A stretch of DNA of 36,412 nt from Candidatus Anstonellales archaeon (GCA_038869735.1 JAWCQO010000003.1:91706-128117); one strand, 5' to 3'. Counted from the stretch's first letter, positions 6,887 to 34,443 are shown. The notes: generated by a model from the sequence alone, not told the origin. Program-made: numbers and translations.

Positions 6887-7354
6887 ATGAATATAGAGCA
6901 ATTGTTAATCATCTGCTTAATCATCTGCTCGATTATAATTCTTGTAGGCTGCCTTAGCAATCAAGCCCGACAAGAAACACTTTATCAGAACTCATCGCTA
7001 ACTTCCATTTCTTCACCTTCCCCCAAGTTAAATTTTGAAATCCAAAACAAGACTCAGCCTCCTACAAAGAAAGATGATTTTGCTGGCAAATATACTCTAT
7101 GGGACATTTATGCACATGATACGTCAGATAGCTGTTGGGTTTACGCTGGCGACAAAATATTTGACGTTACTTCATATTTCAATAAACATCCGGGGAATCC
7201 TTTCGAGATACTTTCTAAATGTGCAAGTAACGTAACAGAATCATTCTCAAACTTAACCGGACCAGGTGGCGTACCCCTTCTTCAATATTTAGAACTCTAT
7301 CATTACAAGGGACAGCTTATTGAGGGAGACAAAAAATTACATCCAAACGAATGA
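6887..7354 (+). CDS. Lipoprotein with cytochrome b5-like heme-binding domain
   Basis: From the ATG at 6887 the product has 155 residues. Residues 6-21 form a hydrophobic signal ending in the lipobox LVGC, with Cys22 as the likely lipidated residue. A Ser/Pro/Gln-rich linker of about 40 residues follows. The rest resembles cytochrome b5: YTLWDIYAHDTSDSCWVYAG, then KIFDVTSYFNKHPGN and later YHYKGQL. The His of HPG and the His of YHYKG correspond to the two axial heme ligands. HPGG of the family is HPGN here. It is likely an extracytoplasmic, membrane-tethered electron carrier. Upstream in-frame starts at 6857 (GTG) and 6878 (ATG) are possible, but the signal peptide is cleanest from 6887. T-runs and TATA-like sequence before it suggest a separate transcript. 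Confidence 0.8.
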   Translation: MNIEQLLIICLIICSIIILVGCLSNQARQETLYQNSSLTSISSPSPKLNFEIQNKTQPPTKKDDFAGKYTLWDIYAHDTSDSCWVYAGDKIFDVTSYFNKHPGNPFEILSKCASNVTESFSNLTGPGGVPLLQYLELYHYKGQLIEGDKKLHPNE

Positions 7355-22962: not shown

Positions 22963-23835
22963 ATGGCTTCAATTCAAAAGTTCATTGATTTTTCCCTCTG
23001 CCTTATCGATAAGCCTCCTGGACCAAGTTCACACGAGGTGTCGGCATATGTAAAAAAAATACTCAATGCAAAAAAAACAGGCCATAGTGGGACTCTGGAT
23101 CCGCAAGTATCAGGACTTCTTCTTATAGGAATAGGGCGTGGGACACGATTTCTTCACTATCTCTCCAGACTACCGAAAGAATACGTAGGAATAATGAAAT
23201 TCCACAAAAAGCTTAGCGAAGAAAAAATACGCCTGCTTTTTTCAAGGTTTACAGGAGAAATCGTTCAGACTCCCCCCAAAGAAAGCGCAGTTCGAAGGAT
23301 ACCTCGGAAGAGAAAGGTTTATTATTTTGTTCCGCTTGAAATCATGAACCACCGAGTATTGTTTATGGTAAAGTGCGAAGCTGGTACCTATATCCGAACA
23401 CTCTGTTCTGACATGGGTGCAACCTGTGGCGGTGCACACCTGTGTGAACTGCGCCGCCTTTCTATCGGAAATTTGCATGTAGATAATGCATACACTCTAC
23501 AACAGCTATCCGATGCAGCCTGGCTTTGGAGGGAGAAAGAAGACGGCAACGAACTCAAAAAAATTCTTCGACCGCCTGAAAGCTTCCTTAATGAATTCAA
23601 AAAGATACATATAAAAGATACGGCTCTCCAAAATATAGCTTCTGGCGCCCCCTTATACGCGCTAGGGATAAAAGAAACTGATGAAGGAATAACAAAAGGA
23701 GAGACAGTTGCGCTTATGCATGGTGGACATCTTGTGGCAATGGCCCAAGCAGTTAGAACGTCAGAAGAAATAAGAAAATTAGGTCGAGGAATAGTGGCAT
23801 ATCCAAAGTTTGTAGTAATTAAATCCGGAGGTTGA
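22963..23835 (+). CDS. cbf5: tRNA/rRNA pseudouridine synthase Cbf5 (TruB family)
   Basis: The 290-residue catalytic subunit of H/ACA ribonucleoproteins makes pseudouridine in rRNA and, in archaea, also Psi55 in the tRNA T loop. GHSGTLDPQVSGLLLIGIG near 44-62 holds the catalytic Asp. CEAGTYIRTLCSDMGATCGG near 138-157 and the C-terminal PUA domain (from about 205: IHIKDTALQNIASGAPLYA ... GETVALMHGGHLVAMA ... KFVVIKSGG) follow. It is somewhat shorter than most archaeal Cbf5 at the N-terminus. Its immediate downstream neighbour is a tRNA(Ser) gene interrupted in the T loop. Confidence 0.95.
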   Translation: MASIQKFIDFSLCLIDKPPGPSSHEVSAYVKKILNAKKTGHSGTLDPQVSGLLLIGIGRGTRFLHYLSRLPKEYVGIMKFHKKLSEEKIRLLFSRFTGEIVQTPPKESAVRRIPRKRKVYYFVPLEIMNHRVLFMVKCEAGTYIRTLCSDMGATCGGAHLCELRRLSIGNLHVDNAYTLQQLSDAAWLWREKEDGNELKKILRPPESFLNEFKKIHIKDTALQNIASGAPLYALGIKETDEGITKGETVALMHGGHLVAMAQAVRTSEEIRKLGRGIVAYPKFVVIKSGG

Positions 23836-23850
23836 GATTTCTGTGCATTA

Positions 23851-23999
23851 GCCGGGATCGCATAACCTGGTAGTGCGTACGCCTGGAGAAAGCATTACAC
23901 TTCCTGCAAGCGTATGGCCTTTGCAGGCCTTATGGGTTCAAAAGGTGTTGGCTCTCTTTTTACAAGAAGCCGACAAACCTGTGATTCCCATTCCCGGCG
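23851..23999 (+). tRNA. tRNA-Ser(GGA) with two introns
   Basis: Acceptor GCCGGGA (23851-23857) pairs with TCCCGGC (23992-23998), with discriminator G at 23999 as expected for serine. The D stem is GCAT/GTGC (23860-23863/23873-23876). The anticodon stem is TACGC (23878-23882)/GCGTA (23910-23914), with anticodon GGA at 23885-23887. The variable arm is GGCCT/AGGCC (23916-23929) and the T stem ATGGG (23932-23936)/CCCAT (23987-23991). Intron 1, at 37/38, is about 23889-23908 (20 nt). Intron 2, in the T loop at 59/60, is about 23943-23985 (43 nt). After removal 86 nt remain, a normal type II tRNA with T loop TTCAAAT. Confidence 0.9.
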
Positions 24000-24007
24000 T
24001 TATATAT
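24000..24007 (+). promoter_or_regulatory. TATA-like box and SD before rps13
   Basis: TTATATAT immediately follows the tRNA(Ser) discriminator base. GAGGTGGT at 24023-24030 then gives a strong SD for the TTG at 24034. The box may allow S13 to be transcribed independently of the tRNA. Confidence 0.35.
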
Positions 24008-24033
24008 CTTATGTTCCATACAGAGGTGGTTTT

Positions 24034-24672
24034 TTGGCTGAATCTGAAGAACAAAGCAAAAAGGCAGAAGAAAAAGGTAAACCGTCGCCTCAAAAAACAC
24101 AAACACAAAAAAAGAAAGAACCAACAACTATAGTAAGAATTGCAGGCAAAGACTTGCGGGGGGACCTTCCACTTCCACGCGCCATTTCCTCAATCCGTGG
24201 AATAGGACTTCAGCTAGCAGATATAATTTCAAATTCTCTTTCCCGTGAACTTTCAATTGACATCTCAAAACCTATTGGAGCTTTATCTGAGGAGCAGATA
24301 AAAACGATAGAAGAGAAGCTACAAGATTTGCCTAGCCTTAAAATACCTTCTTATCTTTATAATAGACAAAAAGATAGAGCATCTGGCAAGGATATGCACC
24401 TCATTGGAAATGAACTTGCATTTGCAACGAAACAGGATATAAACTATCAAATTGACCTTTATACTTGGGTTGGATACCGACACTTTTATGGACAGAAGGT
24501 GAGAGGACAGCGAACAAGAACAACAGGCAGAAGCGGTATGACTGTAGGTGTCATCCGCAAGTCAGCAATTGCTAAAGGAGCCGCAGCTCCTGAATCAAAG
24601 CAGACGCCCCAACCTTCACAGGCCCAGCCTTCTCCCTCAAAAAAAGAACAGGAACCAAAAGAAAAAAAGTAA
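24034..24672 (+). CDS. rps13: 30S ribosomal protein S13 (uS13) with charged extensions
   Basis: Start TTG 24034 is chosen because GAGGTGGT precedes it and because every upstream in-frame start would translate the tRNA(Ser) gene. The 212-residue protein has an N-terminal Glu/Lys/Gln extension of about 30 residues. The S13 core follows: IVRIAGKDLRGDLPLPRAISSIRGIGLQLADII, then DLYTWVGYRHFYGQKVRGQRTRTTGRSGMTVGV. The Pro/Gln/Ser/Lys-rich tail has about 35 residues. Both extensions are longer than the usual archaeal protein of about 150 residues. Confidence 0.95.
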   Translation: MAESEEQSKKAEEKGKPSPQKTQTQKKKEPTTIVRIAGKDLRGDLPLPRAISSIRGIGLQLADIISNSLSRELSIDISKPIGALSEEQIKTIEEKLQDLPSLKIPSYLYNRQKDRASGKDMHLIGNELAFATKQDINYQIDLYTWVGYRHFYGQKVRGQRTRTTGRSGMTVGVIRKSAIAKGAAAPESKQTPQPSQAQPSPSKKEQEPKEKK

Positions 24673-24704
24673 TTTAAACATTCAAAAAATGAGTTGAGGA
24701 TTAA

Positions 24705-25229
24705 ATGGGAGATCCAAGAAAATCAAGGAAAAAATATGAAACCCCAAGAAAGATTTGGGATTCCGTGCGCATCAGGGAAGAAAGAGCTCTTGCAAGAGAA
24801 TACGCGCTTAAGAATGTAAGGGAGCTTTGGTCCTCAATATACAAGCTCAAGACGATTAGGAGAAATGCCCGCAAACTTATTGCAGCAGGAGAAAGAGGAC
24901 AGAAGCAAGCAAAGGACGTAATACAAAGATTGGCTCGGCTTGGCTTTGTAAATGAAAACGCAACACTCCCTGATGTCCTCACCATTTCCATAAGAGATAT
25001 CCTCGATCGCAGGTTGCAATCTTTAGTTTTCAAAAAAGGCCTTGCGAATTCCTACAAGCAAGCCCGTCAACTTATTACACACGGGTTTATAGCGGTTGAT
25101 GGAAAGCGGGTTTCTTCTCCTTCCTACCTCGTACCGAAAGCCAGCGAGCCCCATATAACTTATTTCAAAAAAATAGATTTAAGTGGTAGCGCAATCAAAG
25201 ATAAGAATGATAATAAAGAGAACCAATAA
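24705..25229 (+). CDS. rps4: 30S ribosomal protein S4 (uS4)
   Basis: The 174-residue product begins [37 protein letters not shown], the archaeal S4 N-terminus. It contains the S4 RNA-binding domain near 103-140 ([40 protein letters not shown]). It is a primary 16S rRNA binder. GAGTTGAGG precedes the ATG. Confidence 0.96.
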
Positions 25230-25258
25230 CATAAATACAATTAAACGCAGGTGATTGT

Positions 25259-25819
25259 TTGTCAGATGACAAAAAAGAATCAAAAGACATCCCCTCCCAA
25301 TTAGCTCCTTCCAGCCAGCCTTCCTTGTCTAACTCACAACCTCAAGCACCAGAGCCTTTGGCTGTTCCGTCTCAGACTAAATCAGACCCTACTTTAGAAC
25401 CTACTCGCGAGCGAGAGGAGCCAACAAAAAAGCGAGAGCTTCATTGGGGCGTTGCTCATGTGTACTCTTCAAAGAATAACACCCTAATAACGGTTACAGA
25501 TATATCAGGAGCTGAGACAATAGCGAAGGCAAGTGGTGGAATGGTTGTCAAAGCTGCACGAGAAGAAGGAAAACCATATGCAGCAATGCAAGCAACAGCC
25601 AAAGTAATAAACGAATGCAGGAACAGGGGAATAAACGCTCTACATATTCGTATACGCGCCCCAGGAGGTCATGGTCCAAAGACTCCTGGCGCAGGAGCTC
25701 AAGCAGTTGTTCGCTCAATAGCAAGAATGGGAATAAAAATAGGAAAAATAGAAGATGTTACTCCTGTTCCTTCTGATACCACAAAGAGGCCATGGGGAAG
25801 AAGAGGAAGAAGAGTATAA
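25259..25819 (+). CDS. rps11: 30S ribosomal protein S11 (uS11) with long N-terminal extension
   Basis: The start is TTG 25259 after GCAGGTGATTG. Of 186 residues, the first 55 are a Pro/Ser/Gln/Glu-rich low-complexity extension. The core then matches archaeal S11: [70 protein letters not shown] and the end [11 protein letters not shown]. The family usually has about 130 residues. Order S13-S4-S11-RpoD is standard for archaea. Confidence 0.95.
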
Positions 25820-25837
25820 GCGGTGTGGTGGTTTGAG

Positions 25838-26413
25838 ATGAAGGTTAAAGTCGTTTATGAAGATAACGAGAGAATAGAGCTTAAGCTTGAGGACACCAAA
25901 ACATATTTTGCAAATGCTCTTCGGCGCCTTTCAATGACAGCAGTGCCAGTAATGGCAATTGATACTATAACTGTTTATGAAAATACCTCGTCATCATTTG
26001 ACGAGTACATCTCACACCGACTTGGCTTGATTCCCCTAAAAACTCCTTCCAGCTATCCAAAAAATTCTTCATGTACTCTCATATTGCATAAAGAAGGTCC
26101 CTGTACGGTCTACTCCTCTGATTTAAAAAGCAAGGACCAAAGCGTAAAGCCGTCATTTCCAAACATACCCATAATAAAACTTCTCGAACATCAATCAATA
26201 AGGATAGAAGCACACGCTGTTTTTGGAACAGGCTCAAAGCATGCAAAATTTCAGCCATGTCTTGCTTCGTATGAAAAGAATACTGAAAACTCGTTTTCAT
26301 TCTTTGTTGAGTCGTTTCATCAGTTGCCACCAAGGAAGATACTGTTACAAGCAGCTGAATTGCTTGAAGAAAAAGCAGAGGAATTTGAAAAGCACTTATC
26401 AAAAATGAAATAA
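25838..26413 (+). CDS. rpoD: DNA-directed RNA polymerase subunit D, compact form
   Basis: This is the alpha-N-terminal-domain homologue of archaeal RNA polymerase, a partner of subunit L in assembly. It reads KVVYEDNERIELKLEDTKTYFANALRRLSMTAVPVMAIDTITVYENTSSSFDEYISHRLGLIPL, the typical dimerisation fold, and ends FFVESFHQLPPRKILLQAAELLEEKAEEFEKHL. The 191-residue length (ATG 25838; GTG 25823 is an alternative) lacks the cysteine-rich ferredoxin-like domain present in longer RpoD proteins, as in many euryarchaea. Confidence 0.95.
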   Translation: MKVKVVYEDNERIELKLEDTKTYFANALRRLSMTAVPVMAIDTITVYENTSSSFDEYISHRLGLIPLKTPSSYPKNSSCTLILHKEGPCTVYSSDLKSKDQSVKPSFPNIPIIKLLEHQSIRIEAHAVFGTGSKHAKFQPCLASYEKNTENSFSFFVESFHQLPPRKILLQAAELLEEKAEEFEKHLSKMK

Positions 26414-26445
26414 AGTTTATTTAAATGAGATGAAAATATATTAAT

Positions 26446-26473
26446 ATCCGCACCTTATATTATCTGTGCGGAT
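26446..26473. other. Perfect 8-bp hairpin between rpoD and tRNA-Leu
   Basis: ATCCGCAC (26446-26453) is the exact reverse complement of GTGCGGAT (26466-26473), with a 12-nt AT-rich loop. No T-run follows, so it is not a typical terminator. It could be a processing element for excising the tRNA from the ribosomal transcript or a regulatory hairpin. Its stem core ATCCGC/GCGGAT also occurs in the 77-bp repeats at the end of rps2. Confidence 0.6.
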
Positions 26474-26490
26474 GGAGGTATAAAAAATAT

Positions 26491-26703
26491 GCGGAGATGG
26501 CAGAGCCTGGTCAAATGCGCAGGACTGAGGCTCCTGTGACTTTAGTGTCTGCGGGGGTTCAATCCAAGACAGTTCCATTTTATTTCATTTTCGGCATGCT
26601 GACTAAAAATAAACCCACGTCCTCCCTTTCACAGCCTCTTGGAATTCTATCGTCCGGATTACATACGGGGAACTTTCTTGGGCTACACATCCTCCTCTCC
26701 GCA
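26491..26703 (+). tRNA. tRNA-Leu(GAG) with a ~126-nt T-loop intron
   Basis: Acceptor GCGGAGA (26491-26497) pairs with TCTCCGC (26696-26702), with discriminator A at 26703 as expected for leucine. The anticodon stem is CAGGA (26520-26524)/TCCTG (26532-26536), anticodon GAG at 26527-26529, followed by a long variable arm. T stem GGGGG (26553-26557) pairs with CCTCC (26691-26695) with one G-U. TTCAAT at 26558-26563 starts the T loop and the T at 26690 ends it. The insert, about 26564-26689, begins and ends with a 6+6 bp helix (26564-26576/26669-26681). Mature length would be 87 nt. The exact splice points may shift by 1-2 nt. Confidence 0.88.
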
Positions 26704-26724
26704 TCTTTATTTTAGGGTGTATAT

Positions 26725-27159
26725 ATGCTTAGAGAGAAACTCACGATTGATGCAAAAAACACTATACTTGGAAGATTAGCTTCTAAGGTTGCCAAGTATC
26801 TTCTCCTAGGAAGAGAAGTTTTTATAGTGAATGCAGAACAGGCCTTGATTTCAGGGAGTCTCCAAAAGGCAAAGGAAAAATATCTCAAAAGGTTGACTCA
26901 AAAGCACAAGGCCGACCCATCGCGCTCTCCCAAATGGCCCAAAGAAGCCCACAGACTACTAAAAAGAATAATACGCGGTATGCTCCCAAAAAAGACATCG
27001 AGAGGGAAGAGCGCATTGAAACGCCTAAAGGTTTTTATGGGCATTCCAAAAGAGCTTGAAAATGAAAAATTTCTGACTTTCTCTGAGTTCCTAGGCTTAT
27101 CAAAGAGGAAGACCTTTTCCCTACTTGACCTTTGCAGGGAAATAGGATACAAAAAATAG
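26725..27159 (+). CDS. rpl13: 50S ribosomal protein L13 (uL13)
   Basis: The 144-residue protein opens LTIDAKNTILGRLASKVAKYLLLGREVFIVNAEQALISG, the L13 signature. It has archaeal features such as RSPKWPKEAHRLLKRIIRGMLPKKTSRGKSALKRLKVFMG. TTAGGGTGTAT precedes the ATG, 21 nt after the tRNA(Leu) end. L18e, which normally precedes L13 in archaea, is absent here and the tRNA occupies its place. Confidence 0.96.
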   Translation: MLREKLTIDAKNTILGRLASKVAKYLLLGREVFIVNAEQALISGSLQKAKEKYLKRLTQKHKADPSRSPKWPKEAHRLLKRIIRGMLPKKTSRGKSALKRLKVFMGIPKELENEKFLTFSEFLGLSKRKTFSLLDLCREIGYKK

Positions 27160-27168
27160 GTGAAGCGA

Positions 27169-27615
27169 ATGAAGAACGTCTCAGGTAAGAAAAAACGACT
27201 ATCAAAAAAGAAAATGATTGCGATAGTCACACGCGGAAAGAGAAAAGAGAGTATTGCTAGGGCATCCATAAAAAACGGAAAAGGCTTGGTTAGCATCAAT
27301 GGCATTCCCATCAATGCTTATTCAACGCCACTTGCTAGGTCTATAATAACTGAGCCGCTCTCTGCGTTTCCTCAACTATCCCAAAAAGTTGACATAAAAG
27401 TCCGAGTTACTGGGGGTGGGGTAATAGGACAGGCTCAAGCCTGCAGGACAGCAATAGCCAGAGCTCTTTTAAAACATTCAGGGGAAGACCAAACTATTAA
27501 AGCGCAAATGCAGCAGATAGATCGCTTTCTCCTATTGGAAGACTCTCGGAGAGTTGAACCCAAGAAATACAAGGGTCCAAAAGCACGTGCAAGGTTTCAA
27601 AAATCTTATAGATAA
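27169..27615 (+). CDS. rps9: 30S ribosomal protein S9 (uS9)
   Basis: From ATG 27169 (SD AGGTGAAG) the product has 148 residues. It has VTRGKRKESIARASIKNGKGLVSING near 24-49, VRVTGGGVIGQAQACRTAIARALLKH near 84-109 and the C-terminus DSRRVEPKKYKGPKARARFQKSYR, whose conserved terminal arginine reaches the P-site tRNA. GTG 27160, directly after the L13 stop, is an in-frame alternative. Confidence 0.96.
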   Translation: MKNVSGKKKRLSKKKMIAIVTRGKRKESIARASIKNGKGLVSINGIPINAYSTPLARSIITEPLSAFPQLSQKVDIKVRVTGGGVIGQAQACRTAIARALLKHSGEDQTIKAQMQQIDRFLLLEDSRRVEPKKYKGPKARARFQKSYR

Positions 27616-27626
27616 GGTGATATATT

Positions 27627-27824
27627 ATGTACTTTCCAATAAGATGTTTTACTTGTGGTCAACTAATAGCTCATAAATACGAACCTTACCAAAAAAAACT
27701 TTCAGAAGGAAAGAGCCCTGCAAGCACACTTGATGAACTAAACATAAAGAGATATTGTTGCCGCAGGATGTTTCTTTCTCACGTGGAGGTAGCTGATAAA
27801 ATAATAAAATATGAGAAATTATAA
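27627..27824 (+). CDS. rpoN: DNA-directed RNA polymerase subunit N
   Basis: The 65-residue zinc protein matches Rpb10/RpoN: MYFPIRCFTCGQLIAHKY with CxxC, then LDELNIKRYCCRRMFLSHVE with the CC pair, completing the zinc site. GGTGAT precedes the ATG. RpoK, which often follows in archaea, is not found here; the tRNA(Pro) gene follows instead. Confidence 0.97.
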   Translation: MYFPIRCFTCGQLIAHKYEPYQKKLSEGKSPASTLDELNIKRYCCRRMFLSHVEVADKIIKYEKL

Positions 27825-27832
27825 GAATAATA

Positions 27833-27992
27833 GGGGCCATGGGGTAACCTGGCTATCCTTCCGGCTAACTACTGCTTTCTTTCCCGAGAAGGCTGCTGTC
27901 CGGAATGGGGTGCCGGCGATCCGAGGGAACTCTCCGTTGCTTTTAACTTTGGCAAGCGGCAGAGTCCGGAAATTCAAATCTCGGTGGCCCCA
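27833..27992 (+). tRNA. tRNA-Pro(GGG) with two introns
   Basis: Acceptor GGGGCCA (27833-27839) pairs with TGGCCCC (27985-27991), discriminator A at 27992. The D stem is GGGT/ATCC. The anticodon stem is CCGGC (27861-27865)/GCCGG (27912-27916), and the spliced loop TTGGGGT gives anticodon GGG. The T stem is CCGAG (27921-27925)/CTCGG (27980-27984) with intact T loop TTCAAAT at 27973-27979. Intron 1, about 27867-27905 (39 nt), is flanked by CCGG/CCGG. Intron 2, 27926-27972 (47 nt), lies between T stem and T loop, flanked by TCCG (27920-27923)/CGGA (27967-27970) with 3-nt bulges. After removal 74 nt remain, exactly normal. Confidence 0.87.
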
Positions 27993-28012
27993 AACTTCTG
28001 AGGTCGTGTGGA

Positions 28013-28789
28013 ATGGATAGTCTTCTGGTAAAGCAAGAGAAATATCTTGAAAGTGGGATTCATATAGGCACAAAATTAAAAGTGGTCGATATGGAGCCCT
28101 ACATATACCGAAAAAGAAGTGACGGATTATACGTGCTGGACCTTAGAAAAATTGACGAATGCCTTCGCGCGGCTGCAGCCGAAATAGGAAAGTACTCATC
28201 ACAAGATATCCTCGTAGTAGCTTCTCGTACGTATGCAGGTAATGCAGCTGCAAAATTCTCAAAAATAATTGGCTGCAAAGCCATACTAGGTCGCTTTATA
28301 CCCGGAACATTTACTAACGTTTCAAGATCATATTTCCTAGAGCCAAAATTTGTCCTTGTCTGCGACCCAAAAGCAGAGCGCCAGGCAATAGTTGAAGCTG
28401 CACGCATGAATATCCCCGTTGCTGCTTTGTGCGATACTGATAATCCAACAACAGGAGTCACTTTTATTGTACCGTGCAACAATAAAGGTCGCCGTTCCCT
28501 CGCCCTAATCTTCTATATATTAGCGCGTGAGTATTTTATGGCTCAGAAGCGCATTTCAAGCTATGATGAATTCTCCCTTCAGCCAGAGGATTTCGAGTCA
28601 GATGATGCTTATCAAGAAACAAAGGAAGAGACAAAAAAGAGCGATGTACTCTCCGAGCCTCAAGCCCAAGATGGACAAGATGCGGCTGTTAGTGAAACCA
28701 CGGCTCCTAAGAAACAATCCAAAAAAAAGTCACTTGAAAAACAAAAACCCTTACCCCCTCCAGTGCCACAAGAAGAGGTAACCAATTAA
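28013..28789 (+). CDS. rps2: 30S ribosomal protein S2 (uS2)
   Basis: The 258-residue protein has LVKQEKYLESGIHIGTKLKVVDMEPYIYRKRSDGLYVLDL at the N-terminus and ILGRFIPGTFTNVSR near 90. VAALCDTDNPTTGVTFIVPCNNKGRRSLALIFYILAREY near 143-181 is the archaeal S2 pattern. The last 60 residues are a charged, Gln/Lys/Pro-rich tail. The final nine codons and the stop lie inside the first copy of a 77-bp tandem repeat. GAGGTCG serves as SD. It appears to be the last gene of the operon. Confidence 0.96.
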   Translation: MDSLLVKQEKYLESGIHIGTKLKVVDMEPYIYRKRSDGLYVLDLRKIDECLRAAAAEIGKYSSQDILVVASRTYAGNAAAKFSKIIGCKAILGRFIPGTFTNVSRSYFLEPKFVLVCDPKAERQAIVEAARMNIPVAALCDTDNPTTGVTFIVPCNNKGRRSLALIFYILAREYFMAQKRISSYDEFSLQPEDFESDDAYQETKEETKKSDVLSEPQAQDGQDAAVSETTAPKKQSKKKSLEKQKPLPPPVPQEEVTN

Positions 28790-28949
28790 TCCGCCTGGGT
28801 GCGTGCGGATTGCAGAAAATCGACCGTTGAGGACCTCCAGTGCCACAAGAAGAGGTAACCAATTAATCCGCCTGGGTGCGTGCGGATTGCAGAAAATCGA
28901 CCGTTGAGGACCTCCAGTGCCACAAGAAGAGGCAGCCAATTAATCCGCT
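28757..28949 (+). repeat. 77-bp tandem repeat, 2.5 copies, starting inside rps2
   Basis: Copies 28757-28833 and 28834-28910 are identical; a third, partial and slightly diverged copy runs from 28911 to about 28949. Each full copy contains the last codons and stop of rps2 followed by a hairpin, AATCCGC/GCGGATT with a 10-nt loop (28788-28811 and 28865-28888). A further echo of CCAATTAATC occurs near 29020. The remainder of 28950-29161 has no gene that I can support. Confidence 0.95.
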
Positions 28950-29065
28950 CTGCAAGTTTCTAATCTCTTCGGTATTAGGACTATTAGGAAGAAAACCAAG
29001 CAGGGGGGTTGGACGGCCAATTAATCTGCTTGTCTCTTTATTTACCTCTCGTCCCTTAAAATATC

Positions 29066-29072
29066 TTTTTTT
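29066..29072 (+). terminator. T-run, probable end of the ribosomal operon transcript
   Basis: Seven T residues occur about 280 nt after the rps2 stop and before the convergent gene at 29162. This is a typical archaeal T-rich termination site; a further pyrimidine-rich stretch follows. Confidence 0.4.
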
Positions 29073-29161
29073 GGGCTACTTCTTCTCTTCTCTCACTTTA
29101 CCCCCTCTCATTTTCCCCTTTCTTTCATACGTTAAGTCCTTAGATAAATACTGATAAAACT

Positions 29162-30373
29162 CTAATCAAATGCAGATCTGCACATTTTTTGTGCATCCTC
29201 TCTTTCAATTAAGTCGCATATTGACTTATCCTTCTGTGAGACTGCTGCAGAAGTATAACACTTGTTTTTCCACTCCTCAACTAAAACACCCTTGCACCCT
29301 TCTACATTAATCTTTTTTTCACTATGACCAAAGGCTACGGCAGAAAAGCACGAGCTTCGCCCATAAGCCGTCCTTATATTATTGCAATGAGACATATAAC
29401 CATGCTCAATAGCAACTCCTCTATAACATGAATCTTTCTTCGTCTCTGAAAAAATGTTTTCGCATATATGCGCCTGTCCTGAAATTTTTGCATAGTTCAA
29501 GTAGCAATCGTCAGCAAGAATGGTTGTGTCTGACTTTGAACAAAGAGAAGCGTCCTTTAATGCAGTTGAAAGAGCTCTATAGCACTCATTTCTATATACG
29601 GATTTTTCGCTAGCAAAGCTACACCAATAAGAATTATTCGTATAGGTTGCAACAGTTAGATAGCACAAATCTGCGATCGATTTTTGGCTTGCATTTTGGC
29701 ACTCATCACCTTGCTTATCACTCACAATTCCAATGCACCCAAGCTTTCTTGATTCATTTTTAATATTATAACAAGCATCAGAAAGCCTAAATTCTAGCGC
29801 ATAATCAAAAAGACAGTCGTCATCCTCACATCGTTTATAGTCTTTTGTCTCCCATGCAAAACATCTATCTCTTTCGGCTTCACTAACCTCATCACTTAGG
29901 CAAGGAGGCACAAGCAAATTGATACAGTTTTGTCTTTTTTTATCATCTTTTATCTCATTGCACACGGTATCGTTCTTTATTTTTAGTGCATGAAACTCTA
30001 TGCAGGAATCCCTCGTTTCAACGTTTATTATATGCCGGCACGCCGCAAGGCTCAAATTTGCAAACGGATAGAAACATCTTTGCTGTTCATTTTCCCCATA
30101 TATGAATTGACATATGGTTTCGTTTGAGGTGTTTTTTGCAAGCGACAAGAAGCACAAATCTCTGCTTTTAGTAATCGGTATATCCATACAGGGTGCCGAT
30201 TCTTTTTTTTGTGGCAGAGAAGGCACAACTTTGATTGGTTGAGAAGGCTTTTCCTCAACTTCCTCCTCCCCAACAATTATTTTTGGTAATTGCTTCTCCT
30301 TAAGTTTTATGCATCCAAAAAACATAACAGATAACAAAATAAACGCTATAATAACGAATCGTTTTTGATACAT
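29162..30373 (-). CDS. Lipoprotein with repeated cysteine motifs
   Basis: The 403-residue product starts at ATG 30373 with GAGGTAGGT before it. Residues 6-20 are a hydrophobic signal with lipobox MFFGC, so Cys21 is likely lipidated. After a Pro/Glu/Lys linker (30-60), the rest is a chain of about nine repeats of roughly 35-40 residues. Each has a C ... DxCY/F-xx-A pattern (e.g. NETICQFIYG, RDSCIEFHALK, DDCLFDYALE, DLCYLTVATYT, DDCYLNYAKIS, DSCYRGVAIE). Two cysteines per repeat suggest disulfides outside the membrane. I do not know its function; similar cysteine-repeat proteins are in my recollection seen in uncultured small archaea. Confidence 0.8.
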   Translation of the reverse strand: MYQKRFVIIAFILLSVMFFGCIKLKEKQLPKIIVGEEEVEEKPSQPIKVVPSLPQKKESAPCMDIPITKSRDLCFLSLAKNTSNETICQFIYGENEQQRCFYPFANLSLAACRHIINVETRDSCIEFHALKIKNDTVCNEIKDDKKRQNCINLLVPPCLSDEVSEAERDRCFAWETKDYKRCEDDDCLFDYALEFRLSDACYNIKNESRKLGCIGIVSDKQGDECQNASQKSIADLCYLTVATYTNNSYWCSFASEKSVYRNECYRALSTALKDASLCSKSDTTILADDCYLNYAKISGQAHICENIFSETKKDSCYRGVAIEHGYMSHCNNIRTAYGRSSCFSAVAFGHSEKKINVEGCKGVLVEEWKNKCYTSAAVSQKDKSICDLIEREDAQKMCRSAFD

Positions 30374-30388
30374 ACCTACCTCAACTCT

Positions 30389-30420
30389 TTATCCATTAAA
30401 AACCCCTTATCCATTAAAAA
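30389..30420. repeat. Short direct repeat upstream of the lipoprotein gene
   Basis: TTATCCATTAAAAA occurs at 30389-30402 and again at 30407-30420, a period of 18 bp. Read on the - strand it gives TTTTTAAT twice upstream of the ATG at 30373, so a TATA-like element may be duplicated. Confidence 0.7.
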
Positions 30421-30424
30421 ACCT

Positions 30425-31603
30425 TCATATTATCTTCAATTTCCTCCCCACATCTTCAAATGCAGAGATGGCTTTTTCCAAATCCTCTGCAGTCAAACCC
30501 GCATTCATTATTGTCCTTATCCTTGCTCTATCCGGTGCCACCATCGGATATACTATGGGTAGCGCAAAAATTCCTGCTTCAAACAACATTTCAGACATAA
30601 CCTTCGCCTTCTGGCTTTCTCCGACGATCACCGGTGTGATTGGGGTTTGGCTTTCTCCGATATCAAACCCAAGCCCTTTGAGCGCCTTTTTAAATTTCCT
30701 AGTGTTTCTCCAAAGCCTTTTTAAGTGCCTCGGCTCACTTTCCAAAACATCGAGTGCGGCAATACTTGCTGCAACTACGGCTGGTGGATGAGAACCCGAG
30801 AGAAGCCAAGTCCGTGATTTGTTATAAGCAAAGTTTATCAAATCCCTGCTACCGGCTATATAGCCCCCTACTACTCCAAAAGCCTTTGAGAAAGTCCCCA
30901 TCTCTACATCCACTCTCCCTTCCAGTTTATAATGAGATACTATCCCTCGCCCAGACTCACCGAGAACTCCATCCCCATGAGCATCATCTACATAGGTCAT
31001 AGCTCCATATTTTTCCGCGAGCTCTACTATCCTATCCATCTTTGCGATATCTCCATCCATCGAAAAGACACCATCTGTAACTATTAGCTTTCTGCGTGCA
31101 TTTTCTTTTTCCTTAAGCAATCTCTCCAAGTCTTCCATATCCGAGTGCTTATATACGGCTCTTTCAGCTTTTGATAGCCGGACACCATCAATTATGCTTC
31201 CATGGTTTAGCTGGTCACTAATAATTACGTCCCCTTCCCCCACAAGCTGTGGAATAAGTCCAGCATTAACAGCAAATCCAGTCTGGAAGCACAAAGCAGC
31301 TTCGCATCGCTTGAATCTTGCTATCCTCTCTTCCAGCTGAAAGTGAAGGTCCATACTTCCTGCAATAGCCCGAACAGAGCCAGAGCCAACTCCATATTTC
31401 CTTATTGCCGCAATAGCAGCTCTTTTCAGTTTTGGATGATTGCTCAGATTGAGGTAATTATTTGAACAAAGCATAATTACTTCCTTTCCATCGACAATGC
31501 AATGGGGAGTCGATGGCCCCTGCAATACACGGAGTTTCCAATCCAGATTTTTTGAGACCAGTTCTTCATACTCTACCTTAAGAAAGTCCGTAGGCTTTAC
31601 CAT
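30425..31603 (-). CDS. kbl: 2-amino-3-ketobutyrate CoA ligase (glycine C-acetyltransferase)
   Basis: This PLP enzyme of the alpha-oxoamine synthase family would cleave 2-amino-3-ketobutyrate with CoA to glycine and acetyl-CoA. NNYLNLSNHPKLKRAAIAAIRKYGVGSGSVR is typical of the N-terminal region. VDDAHGDGVLGESGRG holds the PLP-contacting Asp and His, and TFSKAFGVVGGYIAG contains the Schiff-base Lys. Start ATG 31603 (392 residues) follows GAGGGTG at good distance; ATG 31630 would add nine lysine-rich residues. BioF-type function (8-amino-7-oxononanoate synthase) cannot be excluded from sequence, but the divergent threonine dehydrogenase favours KBL. Confidence 0.88.
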   Translation of the reverse strand: MVKPTDFLKVEYEELVSKNLDWKLRVLQGPSTPHCIVDGKEVIMLCSNNYLNLSNHPKLKRAAIAAIRKYGVGSGSVRAIAGSMDLHFQLEERIARFKRCEAALCFQTGFAVNAGLIPQLVGEGDVIISDQLNHGSIIDGVRLSKAERAVYKHSDMEDLERLLKEKENARRKLIVTDGVFSMDGDIAKMDRIVELAEKYGAMTYVDDAHGDGVLGESGRGIVSHYKLEGRVDVEMGTFSKAFGVVGGYIAGSRDLINFAYNKSRTWLLSGSHPPAVVAASIAALDVLESEPRHLKRLWRNTRKFKKALKGLGFDIGESQTPITPVIVGESQKAKVMSEMLFEAGIFALPIVYPMVAPDRARIRTIMNAGLTAEDLEKAISAFEDVGRKLKII

Positions 31604-31672
31604 CAAAAACACCCTCTTTTTTTTCTCCATATACCATAAAAATACTATACTTCGTCAATATGCTATGAGATT

Positions 31673-31682
31673 GTTTTATAAC
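31673..31682. promoter_or_regulatory. Symmetric TATA-like box between kbl and the threonine dehydrogenase gene
   Basis: GTTTTATAAC reads as GTTATAAAAC on the other strand, so it is TATA-like in both directions. It lies in the 111-nt divergent spacer, about 33 nt before the + strand ATG. It may be the promoter of the dehydrogenase gene and possibly of kbl as well. Confidence 0.45.
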
Positions 31683-31714
31683 CTTCCTGATGCTTGAAAT
31701 TAAGGGGGTAGACT

Positions 31715-32665
31715 ATGAAGCGCATTTTAGTGATTGGAGCAACCGGTCAAATAGGTTCTGAATTAGTACCGGCTCTCCGTGCAAAATACGGAGGAGAGAA
31801 TGTAATTGCTGTTGGTTCAAAAACACCACCTTCAGACGAACTCAAAAACTCAGGTCCGTTTGAGTTTGCTGATGCATCAAAAAAAGAGGCAATTGAAAAC
31901 CTTGTAAAAAAATACGAAATAGATACAATTTATCATTTGGCTTCTCTTCTTTCAGCGACAGGAGAAAAGAACCCAGACGCAGCTTGGAATCTCAATATGG
32001 ACAGTCTAAAGCATGTGCTTGATGTTGCTCGAGATAAAAAACTTGAGCAAGTTTTTTGGCCTTCGTCTATAGCGGCTTTCGGACCAACTACTCCTCGCGA
32101 GAATACACCACAAAAAACAATTCTTGAGCCATCTACAATGTACGGAATAACAAAAGTTTCCGGTGAGCTTCTAATGAACTATTATTCTCACAAATTTGGC
32201 GTTGATGCACGTAGCCTTCGCTATCCCGGCCTCATTTCATGGAAGACTCCACCAGGGGGTGGAACAACGGATTATGCAGTTGCGATATTCTATGAGGCTA
32301 TACGACAAAAAAGATACACCTGCTACCTAAAACCAGATACCTACCTGCCTATGATGTATATGCCAGATGCAATCAGAGGCACGATAGAGTTAATGGAGGC
32401 TCCATCATATCGTATATCCAATCGCTTTTCCTATAATTTCTCAGCAATAAGCTTCTCACCTGCCGAGCTAGTTTCTGAAATAAAGAAGCATATAATCGAT
32501 TTTGAATGCACCTACTCCCCAGATTTTCGCCAACAAATTGCAGATTCTTGGCCAAAGTCAATTGATGATTCACTTGCAAGGCATGATTGGGGCTGGAAAC
32601 ACGAATATAACTTAGCAAAAATGACACAGGACATGCTCACAAATCTCCGAAAGGTCCTACACTAA
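31715..32665 (+). CDS. L-threonine 3-dehydrogenase, SDR (epimerase-like) type
   Basis: The 316-residue enzyme belongs to the extended short-chain dehydrogenases. ILVIGATGQIGSELVPAL has the GxxGxxG NAD motif, FADASKKEAIENLVKKYEIDTIYHLASLLSATGEKNP follows, and the active site is WPSSIAAFGPTTP with MYGITKVSGE (YxxxK). SLRYPGLISWKTPPGGGTTDYAV is typical of the SDR-type threonine dehydrogenases of Thermoplasma and some bacteria. It would oxidise L-threonine to 2-amino-3-ketobutyrate, the substrate of the divergent kbl product. GGGGGTAGA precedes the ATG. A sugar epimerase is the less likely alternative. Confidence 0.88.
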   Translation: MKRILVIGATGQIGSELVPALRAKYGGENVIAVGSKTPPSDELKNSGPFEFADASKKEAIENLVKKYEIDTIYHLASLLSATGEKNPDAAWNLNMDSLKHVLDVARDKKLEQVFWPSSIAAFGPTTPRENTPQKTILEPSTMYGITKVSGELLMNYYSHKFGVDARSLRYPGLISWKTPPGGGTTDYAVAIFYEAIRQKRYTCYLKPDTYLPMMYMPDAIRGTIELMEAPSYRISNRFSYNFSAISFSPAELVSEIKKHIIDFECTYSPDFRQQIADSWPKSIDDSLARHDWGWKHEYNLAKMTQDMLTNLRKVLH

Positions 32666-32681
32666 TTGTCTAGCCAAACCT

Positions 32682-33608
32682 CTATAATAGGCTAACCTGC
32701 TCTGCACACACTCTTTTAAGTCCCCTTTCTCTTGCATATCTTATTAATTCGATGTATTCTCTTAAACTGACTCTCGTTGAAAGCTCCTGATATTCCTGCG
32801 CCTTATAAGTCGGAAAGTACTGCGCCATTATGTTCAGGTAAGTGTCAGGAGGGAGATTTTCAGCAATAAAGTCAATAACTTCCTTTGATCCGGCAAGCCC
32901 ATTGGGAAGAACAAGATGTCTTATTATAAGTCCTCGGGTTGCTATGCCTCTCTTATCCGTCTTCAATACACCTACCTGTCTGTTCATCTCAATAAGGTTT
33001 TTTTTGCAAATATTCCAATAATTTGAAGCAGCGGAGTACCTAATGGCGTTTTCATCTAAAGAATACTTTGCATCTGGCATATAAATATCAAAAATCCCTT
33101 CAAGCTTCCTGATAATTTCTGGGTCATCATATCCTCCGGAGTTGTATACAAGGGGAAGTCTCAGACCTTTCTTTCTTGCTATAACCAGGGCTTCAAGAAT
33201 CTGGGGGATGACGTGAGTAGGCGTGACTAGGTTTATATTGTGTGCTCCTTGGCTCTGTAGCCAAAGCATCCCATCCGCAATCTCATTTGCACTCATCTCT
33301 TTTCCATTTCCCAGCTGGGAAATATCGTAATTTTGGCAGAAAACACAGCGCAAGTTACAAAATGAAAAGAACACTGTTCCGCTGCCTCTAATTCCAACAA
33401 GCTCTTTTTCCTCTCCAAAATGCCTCTGAAATCCACAAACAACCGCCAGCCTTCCGGTCTTGCAAAAACCACGTTTGTCCTCTAACCTGTTGACTTTGCA
33501 CTTTCTTGGACATAAAATGCACCTTTCTAATATTCCTACAAATTCGTCTCTTAGCTCCGTCAACTTCTCTTGACTCATACGAAGGTATGAGGAAACCACT
33601 TCAAACAT
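32682..33608 (-). CDS. PflX-like radical SAM protein (COG1313 type)
   Basis: CNLRCVFCQNYDIS near residues 89-102 holds the CxxxCxxC cluster motif. GAHNINLVTPTHVIPQILEAL, YNSGGYDDPEIIRKLEGIFDIYMPDAKY and the C-terminal RHLVLPNGLAGSKEVIDFIAENL follow the PflX pattern throughout. An N-terminal CILCPRKCKVNR cysteine motif is also characteristic. ATG 33608 gives 308 residues and has GGGAG nearby; ATG 33578 is possible. Longer upstream frames would translate the tRNA(Gln) gene. It is related to, but distinct from, the radical SAM member of AmmeMemoRadiSam. Substrate unknown. Confidence 0.85.
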   Translation of the reverse strand: MFEVVSSYLRMSQEKLTELRDEFVGILERCILCPRKCKVNRLEDKRGFCKTGRLAVVCGFQRHFGEEKELVGIRGSGTVFFSFCNLRCVFCQNYDISQLGNGKEMSANEIADGMLWLQSQGAHNINLVTPTHVIPQILEALVIARKKGLRLPLVYNSGGYDDPEIIRKLEGIFDIYMPDAKYSLDENAIRYSAASNYWNICKKNLIEMNRQVGVLKTDKRGIATRGLIIRHLVLPNGLAGSKEVIDFIAENLPPDTYLNIMAQYFPTYKAQEYQELSTRVSLREYIELIRYARERGLKRVCAEQVSLL

Positions 33609-33632
33609 CAACTCCCGAATCAAGCTACTTAT

Positions 33633-33705
33633 TAGCCCCGATCGGATTCGAACCGATGTTCCCAGGTCCAAAGCCTGGTGTCCTTGGCCGCTAGACGACG
33701 GGGCT
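33633..33705 (-). tRNA. tRNA-Gln(UUG), uninterrupted
   Basis: On the - strand the acceptor AGCCCCG (33705-33699) pairs with CGGGGCT (33640-33634), with discriminator A at 33633. The anticodon loop CTTTGGA between CCAGG and CCTGG gives anticodon TTG, decoding CAA. The T arm is intact (ATCGG-TTCGAAT-CCGAT). This is the only tRNA in the window without an intron. It lies 5 nt after the second 3' exon copy of tRNA(Leu) on the same strand and just before the radical SAM gene. Confidence 0.95.
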
Positions 33706-33707
33706 GC

Positions 33708-33743
33708 ATGTGCGGGGAGCAGGATATGTGCGGGGAGCAGGAT
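33708..33743. repeat. Perfect 18-bp tandem duplication of the tRNA-Leu(UAG) 3' exon
   Basis: Positions 33708-33725 and 33726-33743 are identical. On the - strand each copy contains AT, the T-stem 3' strand CCTGC, the acceptor 3' strand TCCCCGC and the discriminator A. Both copies could therefore serve as the 3' exon of the adjacent intron-containing tRNA(Leu). Confidence 0.95.
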
Positions 33744-33898
33744 TTTTACACGAGGGTCCAAGCCGCATTAGAAAACTTGGGAAGGACCAAAATTTTAATA
33801 AATCTTCATATCTCATTCAGCGTGTTTTGAACCTGCGCAGACACTAAAGTCACAGGGTCCTAAGCCCTGCGCATTTGACCAAGCTCTGCCATCCCCGC
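33729..33898 (-). tRNA. tRNA-Leu(UAG) with an 83-nt T-loop intron
   Basis: On the - strand acceptor GCGGGGA (33898-33892) pairs with TCCCCGC (33736-33730), with discriminator A at 33729. The anticodon stem CAGGG/CCCTG encloses CTTAGGA, anticodon TAG (CUA). D arm and long variable arm match those of the tRNA(Leu,GAG) in this window. T stem GCAGG (33836-33832) pairs with CCTGC (33741-33737). TTCAAA (33831-33826) plus T (33742) make a T loop TTCAAAT once 33825-33743 is removed. CACG/CGTG inside the intron, TTCA/TAAA as central helix and 3-nt bulges fit BHB geometry with one mismatch. Mature length 87 nt. A second 3' exon lies at 33711-33723. Confidence 0.9.
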
Positions 33899-33933
33899 AT
33901 TCATTTGTCTGCAAAGTCTTTTTTGCAAAATGA

Positions 33934-33987
33934 AGATATAAACCTTAGTCTAAAACTATCAGATATAAACCTTAGTCTAAAACTATC
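33934..33987 (-). repeat. 27-bp tandem duplication carrying the tRNA-Leu promoter
   Basis: Positions 33934-33960 and 33961-33987 are identical. Each unit read on the - strand ends in GGTTTATATCT, a TATA box. The nearer copy is about 40 nt upstream of the tRNA(Leu) start at 33898, so the promoter appears to have been duplicated. Confidence 0.9.
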
Positions 33988-34067
33988 CCAGTTTCATTTA
34001 TTCCAAACTCAGCCAGCCGTCCAAATAAGCATAAAACAAAGACGTAAGAAAAGAAAGAAGAAGAGGT

Positions 34068-34220
34068 TTATTTCTTTGCTCTTATCTCCTTTCTCTTGGG
34101 TCGCAGAGCCTTATATCCGCATTTTCGACAATACTTTGCTCCCCGCTTATTTCGAGCCTTACATTTTCTACATATGAAAATATCTGAAATTAGACTATCA
34201 GCCTCTGGAAATTTGCCCAT
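34068..34220 (-). CDS. rpl40e: 50S ribosomal protein L40e (eL40)
   Basis: This 50-residue gene runs on the - strand from ATG 34220 to TAA 34068. The product reads MGKFPEADSLISDIFICRKC, then KARNKRGAKYCRKCGYKALR and a basic end PKRKEIRAKK. The CRKC ... CRKC pairs form the zinc ribbon of archaeal eL40, and RNKRGAKYCRKCGY is diagnostic. GGTGGTG lies just upstream as SD. It stands alone, 169 nt before the tRNA(Leu) gene on the same strand. Confidence 0.95.
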   Translation of the reverse strand: MGKFPEADSLISDIFICRKCKARNKRGAKYCRKCGYKALRPKRKEIRAKK

Positions 34221-34299
34221 ATCTTAAAACACCACCAAAAAGTCAAAGTCTTTTGTTTGATGCACCTTTAAATTTCTTTGCTAAAAGTTGACATAATAA

Positions 34300-34332
34300 C
34301 TATTTATAGTTTTTTTAGATACTAAAGTATCT
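34300..34332 (+). promoter_or_regulatory. Promoter and palindromic leader of tRNA-Thr
   Basis: CTATTTATAG at 34300-34309 is a TATA-like element about 30 nt before the tRNA start, and it is nearly symmetric. It is followed by AGATACT-AA-AGTATCT (34317-34332), a perfect 7-bp inverted repeat ending 3 nt before the tRNA. This could form a 5' leader hairpin or be a protein-binding site. Confidence 0.5.
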
Positions 34333-34335
34333 TAA

Positions 34336-34443
34336 GCCTCAGTAGCTCAGTGGTAGAGCGGCTGCCTTGTAAGCAGTAGGTCGGGAGTTCAACAAGACCC
34401 AAACACATAAAAAAGAGGTTCTCTGAAAATCTCCCCTGAGGCT
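34336..34443 (+). tRNA. tRNA-Thr(UGU) with a 36-nt T-loop intron
   Basis: Acceptor GCCTCAG (34336-34342) pairs with CTGAGGC (34436-34442); discriminator T at 34443 is typical for archaeal threonine tRNA. The D stem is GCTC/GAGC, and the anticodon stem GCTGC/GCAGT with loop CTTGTAA gives anticodon TGT at 34368-34370. T stem GGGAG (34383-34387) pairs with CTCCC (34431-34435). TTCA (34388-34391) pairs perfectly with TGAA (34424-34427), with 3-nt bulges ACA and AAT, a clean BHB. Excision of 34394-34429 leaves T loop TTCAACT and a 72-nt tRNA. Confidence 0.95.

Follow-up and report, generated by a model that had tools for sequence, protein, structure and literature searches.

Introns in the T arm of archaeal tRNA genes have been described before: the sites 53/54, 56/57, and 59/60 are already listed (PMC4090602), and T-loop introns are named in another study (PMC6379350). 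The intron load of a genome can be high, as in Pyrobaculum calidifontis with 71 introns in 46 tRNA genes (PMC8450103) and, according to the main-text passages of PMC11291895, in three Asgard genomes (Atabeyarchaeia and Freyarchaeia) with introns, often non-canonical and multiple, in 92-95% of tRNA genes. Similar introns are reported to have spread between tRNA genes in Thermoproteales (Fujishima 2010, as cited in PMC4090602), and the permuted tRNAs of Thermofilum pendens and Cyanidioschyzon are joined at 59/60 (PMC3218864). Here we describe the tRNA genes of Candidatus Anstonellales archaeon, starting from a stretch of 36,412 nucleotides (nt) (GCA_038869735.1 JAWCQO010000003.1:91706-128117), hereafter referred to as the window, in which the T arm is interrupted in five of the six tRNA genes. 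The inserts in the window and in the rest of the genome are, with a probability of about 0.93, archaeal bulge-helix-bulge (BHB) tRNA introns placed in the T arm.

The closest likeness is to Thermoproteales and other Crenarchaeota, which share the same three sites, several introns per gene, and a BHB or relaxed motif (PMC4090602, PMC6379350, PMC8450103). The introns of those organisms are, however, described as scattered over many positions, whereas here the non-canonical introns are predominantly in the T arm, in a DPANN lineage with an epsilon2-type endonuclease, reaching 33 of the 38 tRNAs found in the related genome CG1_02_47_40 (G001). The intron transposition of Thermoproteales, in so far as it is described through PMC4090602, is echoed in G001, but there the body of the intron also occurs as a repeat dispersed in the genome. 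For the Asgard archaea, which stand apart as a group, the share of the T arm is not given in the main-text passages compared. Permuted tRNAs have the 59/60 joint in common with the present genes but differ in their swapped exon order.

The window was analysed by reading of the sequence and with a finder of our own, which looks for all four arms (acceptor, D, anticodon, and T) while permitting introns at 37/38 and within the T arm; it recovered the tRNA genes of the window with high scores. Each intron lies on the strand of its gene. tRNA-Ser(GGA) (23851-23999, plus strand), detected by this finder, carries two introns, and all its arms (acceptor, D, anticodon, variable, and T) are complete once spliced. 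The anticodon stem TACGC/GCGTA closes only upon removal of its 20-nt intron at 37/38 (23889-23908). Its 43-nt T-loop intron (23943-23985) was placed at 59/60, because the loop TTCAAAT then equals that of the uninterrupted orthologue from Fermentimicrarchaeum; a 56/57 register is also possible. tRNA-Leu(GAG) (26491-26703, plus strand), detected by the finder and Rfam, contains a 126-nt T-loop intron (26564-26689) at 59/60 or 58/59, with a relaxed motif, and its spliced form is 85% identical to an uninterrupted Leu(GAG) from another Micrarchaeota genome. tRNA-Pro(GGG) (27833-27992, plus strand), of which the arms were assigned by sequence reading, also carries two introns, one of about 39 nt near 31/32 (about 27866-27904, exact junction uncertain) and one of 47 nt at 53/54 (27926-27972) with the central helix TCCG:CGGA. 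Removal of the former is required for the CCGGC...GCCGG stem around TGGGGT, and in the unspliced fold TCCGG is paired with CCGGA; the anticodon label 'AAC' given to this gene by the finder was an artefact of this second intron and was rejected. tRNA-Leu(UAG) (33729-33898, minus strand; finder) contains an 83-nt intron at 59/60 in the T loop (33743-33825) with three of four pairs in the helix TTCA:TAAA, and tRNA-Thr(UGU) (34336-34443, plus strand; finder and Rfam) a 36-nt intron at the same site (34394-34429) with a perfect TTCA:TGAA helix. The sixth gene, tRNA-Gln(UUG) (33633-33705, minus strand; ARAGORN and Rfam), is uninterrupted and represents an internal control. The original prediction had correctly given the five interrupted genes and the lengths of their T-arm inserts; it had overlooked the second introns of Ser(GGA) and Pro(GGG), and two of the five genes thus carry two. 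A gene for a Cbf5/TruB-type pseudouridine synthase (22963-23835, Pfam) is located directly upstream of Ser(GGA).

After splicing in silico, the cloverleaf was complete, with a T stem of 5 bp and a T loop of 7 nt, mostly TTCRAAT; the exons are in normal order in all five interrupted genes and 36-126 nt apart. The unconstrained minimum-energy fold of Thr(UGU) was a cloverleaf plus a textbook BHB at the T loop, with both bulges formed, while the junction in the Leu(GAG) fold was loop-like and relaxed. Neither the reversed window (cut-off 46) nor 20 two-base-block shuffled windows, scanned on both strands (cut-off 42), gave any call with the finder, and chance is therefore excluded. ARAGORN detected one of the six tRNAs and Rfam two at the gathering score; at E<=1, Rfam recognized three of the five interrupted genes, though only as tRNAs from which the T-arm portion was skipped, and missed Ser(GGA) and Pro(GGG). 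To such standard models, genomes of this kind appear poor in tRNA.

The window belongs to an 884-kb Micrarchaeota metagenome-assembled genome (G000; 15 contigs, 96.85% complete). A total of 44 tRNA genes were found in it by combining Rfam tRNA hits, targeted stretches, our finder, and one direct search, with Gln(CUG), Val(CAC), and Thr(GGU) being assigned visually. A T-arm intron is present in 17 of these 44 genes (39%), 16 in the T loop, namely iMet, Thr(UGU), Leu(UAG, GAG, CAA), Ala(UGC, GGC), Ser(GCU, GGA, CGA), Val(UAC), Arg(UCG), Asp, Tyr, His, and Gly(CCC), and one at 53/54, in Pro(GGG). The earlier impression that T-loop interruption is almost the rule therefore applies to the window and to the sister genome G001, but not to G000 as a whole. 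Intact second copies of the interrupted isoacceptors, which the original prediction had named as the mark of pseudogenes, were searched for genome-wide, and none was found among the 44 genes of this 97%-complete genome; iMet, His, Tyr, and Asp are single copies, all interrupted. Two apparent T-arm introns, in Arg(CCU) of G000 (L023) and Arg(UCG) of G001 (L197), were discarded as artefacts that long 37/38 introns had caused in the finder, and the locus labelled 'GCA' (L155) was recognized by eye as Val(UAC) with a D-loop intron, its T arm still being interrupted.

The splicing signal was examined at a fixed 59/60 cut. Between bases 54-57 of the exon and intron bases -6 to -3 of G000, 46 of 68 pairs were Watson-Crick (one intron being counted twice); the share was 26% at other intron offsets, and the neighbouring upstream registers gave 18-19 of 68. 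The pairing peaks exactly at the predicted 59/60 register. Reading of 88 T-arm introns across eight genomes gave 49 at 59/60, 18 at 56/57, 16 at 58/59, and five at 53/54, usually with a BHB and a 4-bp central helix; the helix counts of this set are biased upward by choice of the best register where several were equivalent, a bias from which the fixed-register count of G000 is free. The helix is specific to the site: TTCA:TGAA or TTCG:CGAA at 59/60, GTTC:GAAC at 58/59, GGGT:GCCC at 56/57, and the T stem itself (TCCG:CGGA, TCTG:CAGA) at 53/54, where all five introns, from four genomes, are in tRNA-Pro. Base 57 covaries with its intron partner in the eight genomes (A:U 28, G:C 13, G:U 4, A:C 0; P = 3e-8 in a Fisher test of these four cells, the rows of which are not phylogenetically independent). 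The spliced exons are 65-93% identical to uninterrupted tRNAs with the same anticodon from other Micrarchaeota, and in Thr(UGU), cut at 59/60 in G000 and at 58/59 in G001, C59 is kept and the spliced loop is TTCAACT both times.

The enzymes for removal of such introns are encoded in the same genome. The single PF01974 gene of G000 (G000:C6:50458-51636, minus strand) codes for a tRNA endonuclease of 392 amino acids, of which residues 1-392 are collinear with residues 1-387 of the epsilon2 endonuclease of ARMAN-2 (Micrarchaeum) (PDB 4FZ2, also 9W2K; E 1e-130), with three fused units in a single chain of about 390 residues. The catalytic residues Y236, H251, and K282 and the ASL residues Y160 and K161 of the ARMAN-2 enzyme (PMC12397907) are all conserved, as Y237, H252, K283, Y161, and K162, respectively. 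Family search, full-length collinearity, and these key residues together assign the enzyme by sequence to the epsilon2 type, members of which take canonical as well as relaxed motifs (PMC6379350, PMC12397907). The structural study of the ARMAN-2 enzyme differs from the present case in that precursors of Ile(UAU) and Cys(GCA) were assayed, and no published test on a T-loop substrate was found in the literature search. The ligase RtcB is also encoded in G000 (E 7e-170). The expectation of non-canonical archaeal introns with a BHB motif and a broad-specificity endonuclease was thus well founded.

The sequence anatomy, the covariation of base 57, the lack of intact copies, the conservation of the spliced products, and the two encoded enzymes form the observed basis for the following scheme, from which we infer cleavage and ligation in the cell, the order of processing, and the cause of the T-arm preference. 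Bases 54-57 (TTCR) of the 5' exon would pair with four intron bases ending three nt before the 3' splice site, leaving two three-base bulges to be cut by the epsilon2 endonuclease, and RtcB would then join the exons. In alternative registers, the helix would be GTTC:GAAC (58/59), GGGT:GCCC (56/57), or the T stem itself (53/54, tRNA-Pro only). In the precursor, bases 54-57 are engaged in pairing, and for this reason the T-loop/D-loop elbow and the modification of the T loop should form only after splicing. The T arm would be a hot spot, the preferred reason being that GTTCRA is common to nearly all tRNAs, so that one kind of intron 3' end would suit almost any of them.

Several observations weigh against this scheme. 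In over half of the G000 introns the central helix contains at least one mismatch or wobble pair, and in Leu(GAG) there is no central helix worth the name; splicing must therefore depend on relaxed specificity. The BHB is perfect in Thr(UGU), has one mismatch in several introns, and is relaxed in Leu(GAG). Accordingly the 4+2|1 geometry (a 4-nt exon helix, two bulge bases, and one base from the 3' side), originally claimed for all four T-loop introns of the window, stands in full for Thr(UGU), with one mismatch for Leu(UAG), and with a U.U mismatch and a wobble pair for Ser(GGA), but fails for Leu(GAG), where no register gives a good central helix. In addition, where runs of A meet, the position of the cut slides by as many as three bases, the best-register choice inflates the helix counts of the eight genomes, and excision, processing order, and exact junctions are predicted from the sequence.

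The interrupted genes might instead be pseudogenes broken by insertions, with working copies elsewhere, as could be hidden in a draft assembly of 15 contigs in which tRNA genes for Cys and Arg(GCG), the latter also sought by direct search, were not found. This reading fails on the lack of intact copies: 17 different isoacceptors are each present solely in interrupted form, the stems are intact, and many of the same isoacceptors are interrupted in G001, so that it is already largely refuted and retains hardly any probability. The 3' half of tRNA genes is the usual integration target of viruses and plasmids, and T-arm introns do disrupt this half; that they are kept because they break the target is conceivable, albeit improbable. 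Split or permuted tRNAs, or self-splicing introns, were also considered, since the permuted tRNAs of Thermofilum and red algae are joined at the same 59/60 position (PMC3218864). The normal order and short distance of the exons argue against split or permuted genes, while no self-splicing intron was detected in the window by Rfam at E<=1 and inserts of 36-126 nt are too short for group I or group II introns; this explanation is again highly unlikely, and BHB introns of normal tRNA genes are preferred.

Interruption of the T arm extends to other Micrarchaeota. G001 is the only other genome of the same family among the relatives searched; the counts for relatives come from hits of an intron-blind model, by which multiply interrupted genes are missed. 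The 33 interrupted genes of G001 comprise 30 found by script and Trp, Arg(UCU), and Val(GAC) found by eye. In other families of the same order, 10 of 15 solved tRNAs (G010) and 12 of 18 (G004) are interrupted, and seven (G002) and five (G005) T-arm-interrupted tRNAs were found where weak hits alone were examined. More distant genomes gave three of 32 (Fermentimicrarchaeum) and four of 24 (G050). T-arm introns are thus present in every Micrarchaeota genome examined here, their dominance being confined to some lineages. A pattern scan of 245 genomes of the phylum gave 572 matches against 174 for a reversed-pattern control, many single matches not being tRNAs, and hints that T-loop introns are widespread in Micrarchaeota.

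With respect to origin, many T-loop introns of G001 share a repeat body, CCCATA-GGGGG...CCCCC-TAAGGGYTTCA..., starting three or fewer bases from the 5' splice site, with 98.9% identity over 89 nt between those of Asn and Ser(UGA). This body recurs at 37/38, in introns of Ser(CGA) and Ser(UGA), with similar starts in Arg(CCU) and Arg(UCG), and copies of the palindromic repeat (CCCATA-G-run...C-run-AGGGYTTCA) are located outside tRNA genes, in intergenic regions of G001 (L189-L194, L366-L369). A related repeat occurs 13 times in genome G019, and two of the fetched copies (among L203, L219, L227, and L231) lie just 3' of tRNA genes. These observations raise the possibility that a mobile or dispersed repeat lands in the T loop and that the introns are its copies, merely tolerated by splicing, an origin that is compatible with the BHB mechanism. 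Against it, no similar introns were detected within G000 at E 1e-3, and hence no intron family there, and in G001 the copies mostly have no sequence in common over the final 20-35 nt of the intron: the 3' tails differ, and most hold four bases fitting the exon of their own tRNA. The repeat may therefore have invaded older introns rather than founded them, and the proposed origin is at present somewhat doubtful. Equally tentative is the wider proposal that the T loop is the standard tRNA splice site in this family, the palindromic repeat spreading as a T-loop (and 37/38) intron with GTTCRA as a near-universal landing and splicing site, so that almost every tRNA would be spliced before elbow folding, T-loop modification, and recognition by elbow-reading enzymes.

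A literature search that lacked most of the older primary papers yielded no description of T-arm introns in Micrarchaeota, of a T-arm-dominated tRNA set, or of a link between T-arm introns and a dispersed repeat. T-arm dominance and its connection with the repeat may be new, on weak evidence, while the sites, the enzyme type, and the high intron load are already known. In this lineage the commonest non-canonical position is one that otherwise carries introns only occasionally, and it goes together with an enzyme whose broad specificity has already received a structural explanation. Whether splicing can be shifted to before the formation of the elbow and the modification of the T loop in most tRNAs, and how introns multiply between tRNA genes, thereby become testable.

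Other tRNAs of the two genomes show further peculiarities. Val(CAC) of G000 (G000:C10 about 7070-7180, L025) contains a D-loop intron of about 35 nt flanked by the 6-nt direct repeat AGTCGA, which resembles a small duplication at an insertion site, and Gln(CUG) (G000:C6:22263-22375, L022) carries a D-loop intron as well as a 37/38 intron. The T loop of Thr(GGU) starts with TGCAA instead of TTCAA in both G000 (L039) and G001 (L138); with G at position 55, Psi55 is therefore impossible. In tRNA-Trp of G001 (L199), the T loop around the T-loop intron is TCCAAAT, with C55. Ile(UAU) has a conserved 37/38 intron in G000 (L013) and G001 (L157), and since no second Ile-like CAU tRNA was identified alongside it, AUA may be decoded by Ile(UAU) in this lineage. 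Apart from the tRNA genes, the window includes three repeat copies at 77-bp spacing (28766-28945), which start at the end of the gene for ribosomal protein S2 and continue into the spacer downstream, and an open reading frame for a cysteine-rich, lipoprotein-like product of 403 amino acids (29162-30373, minus strand) with no Pfam match.

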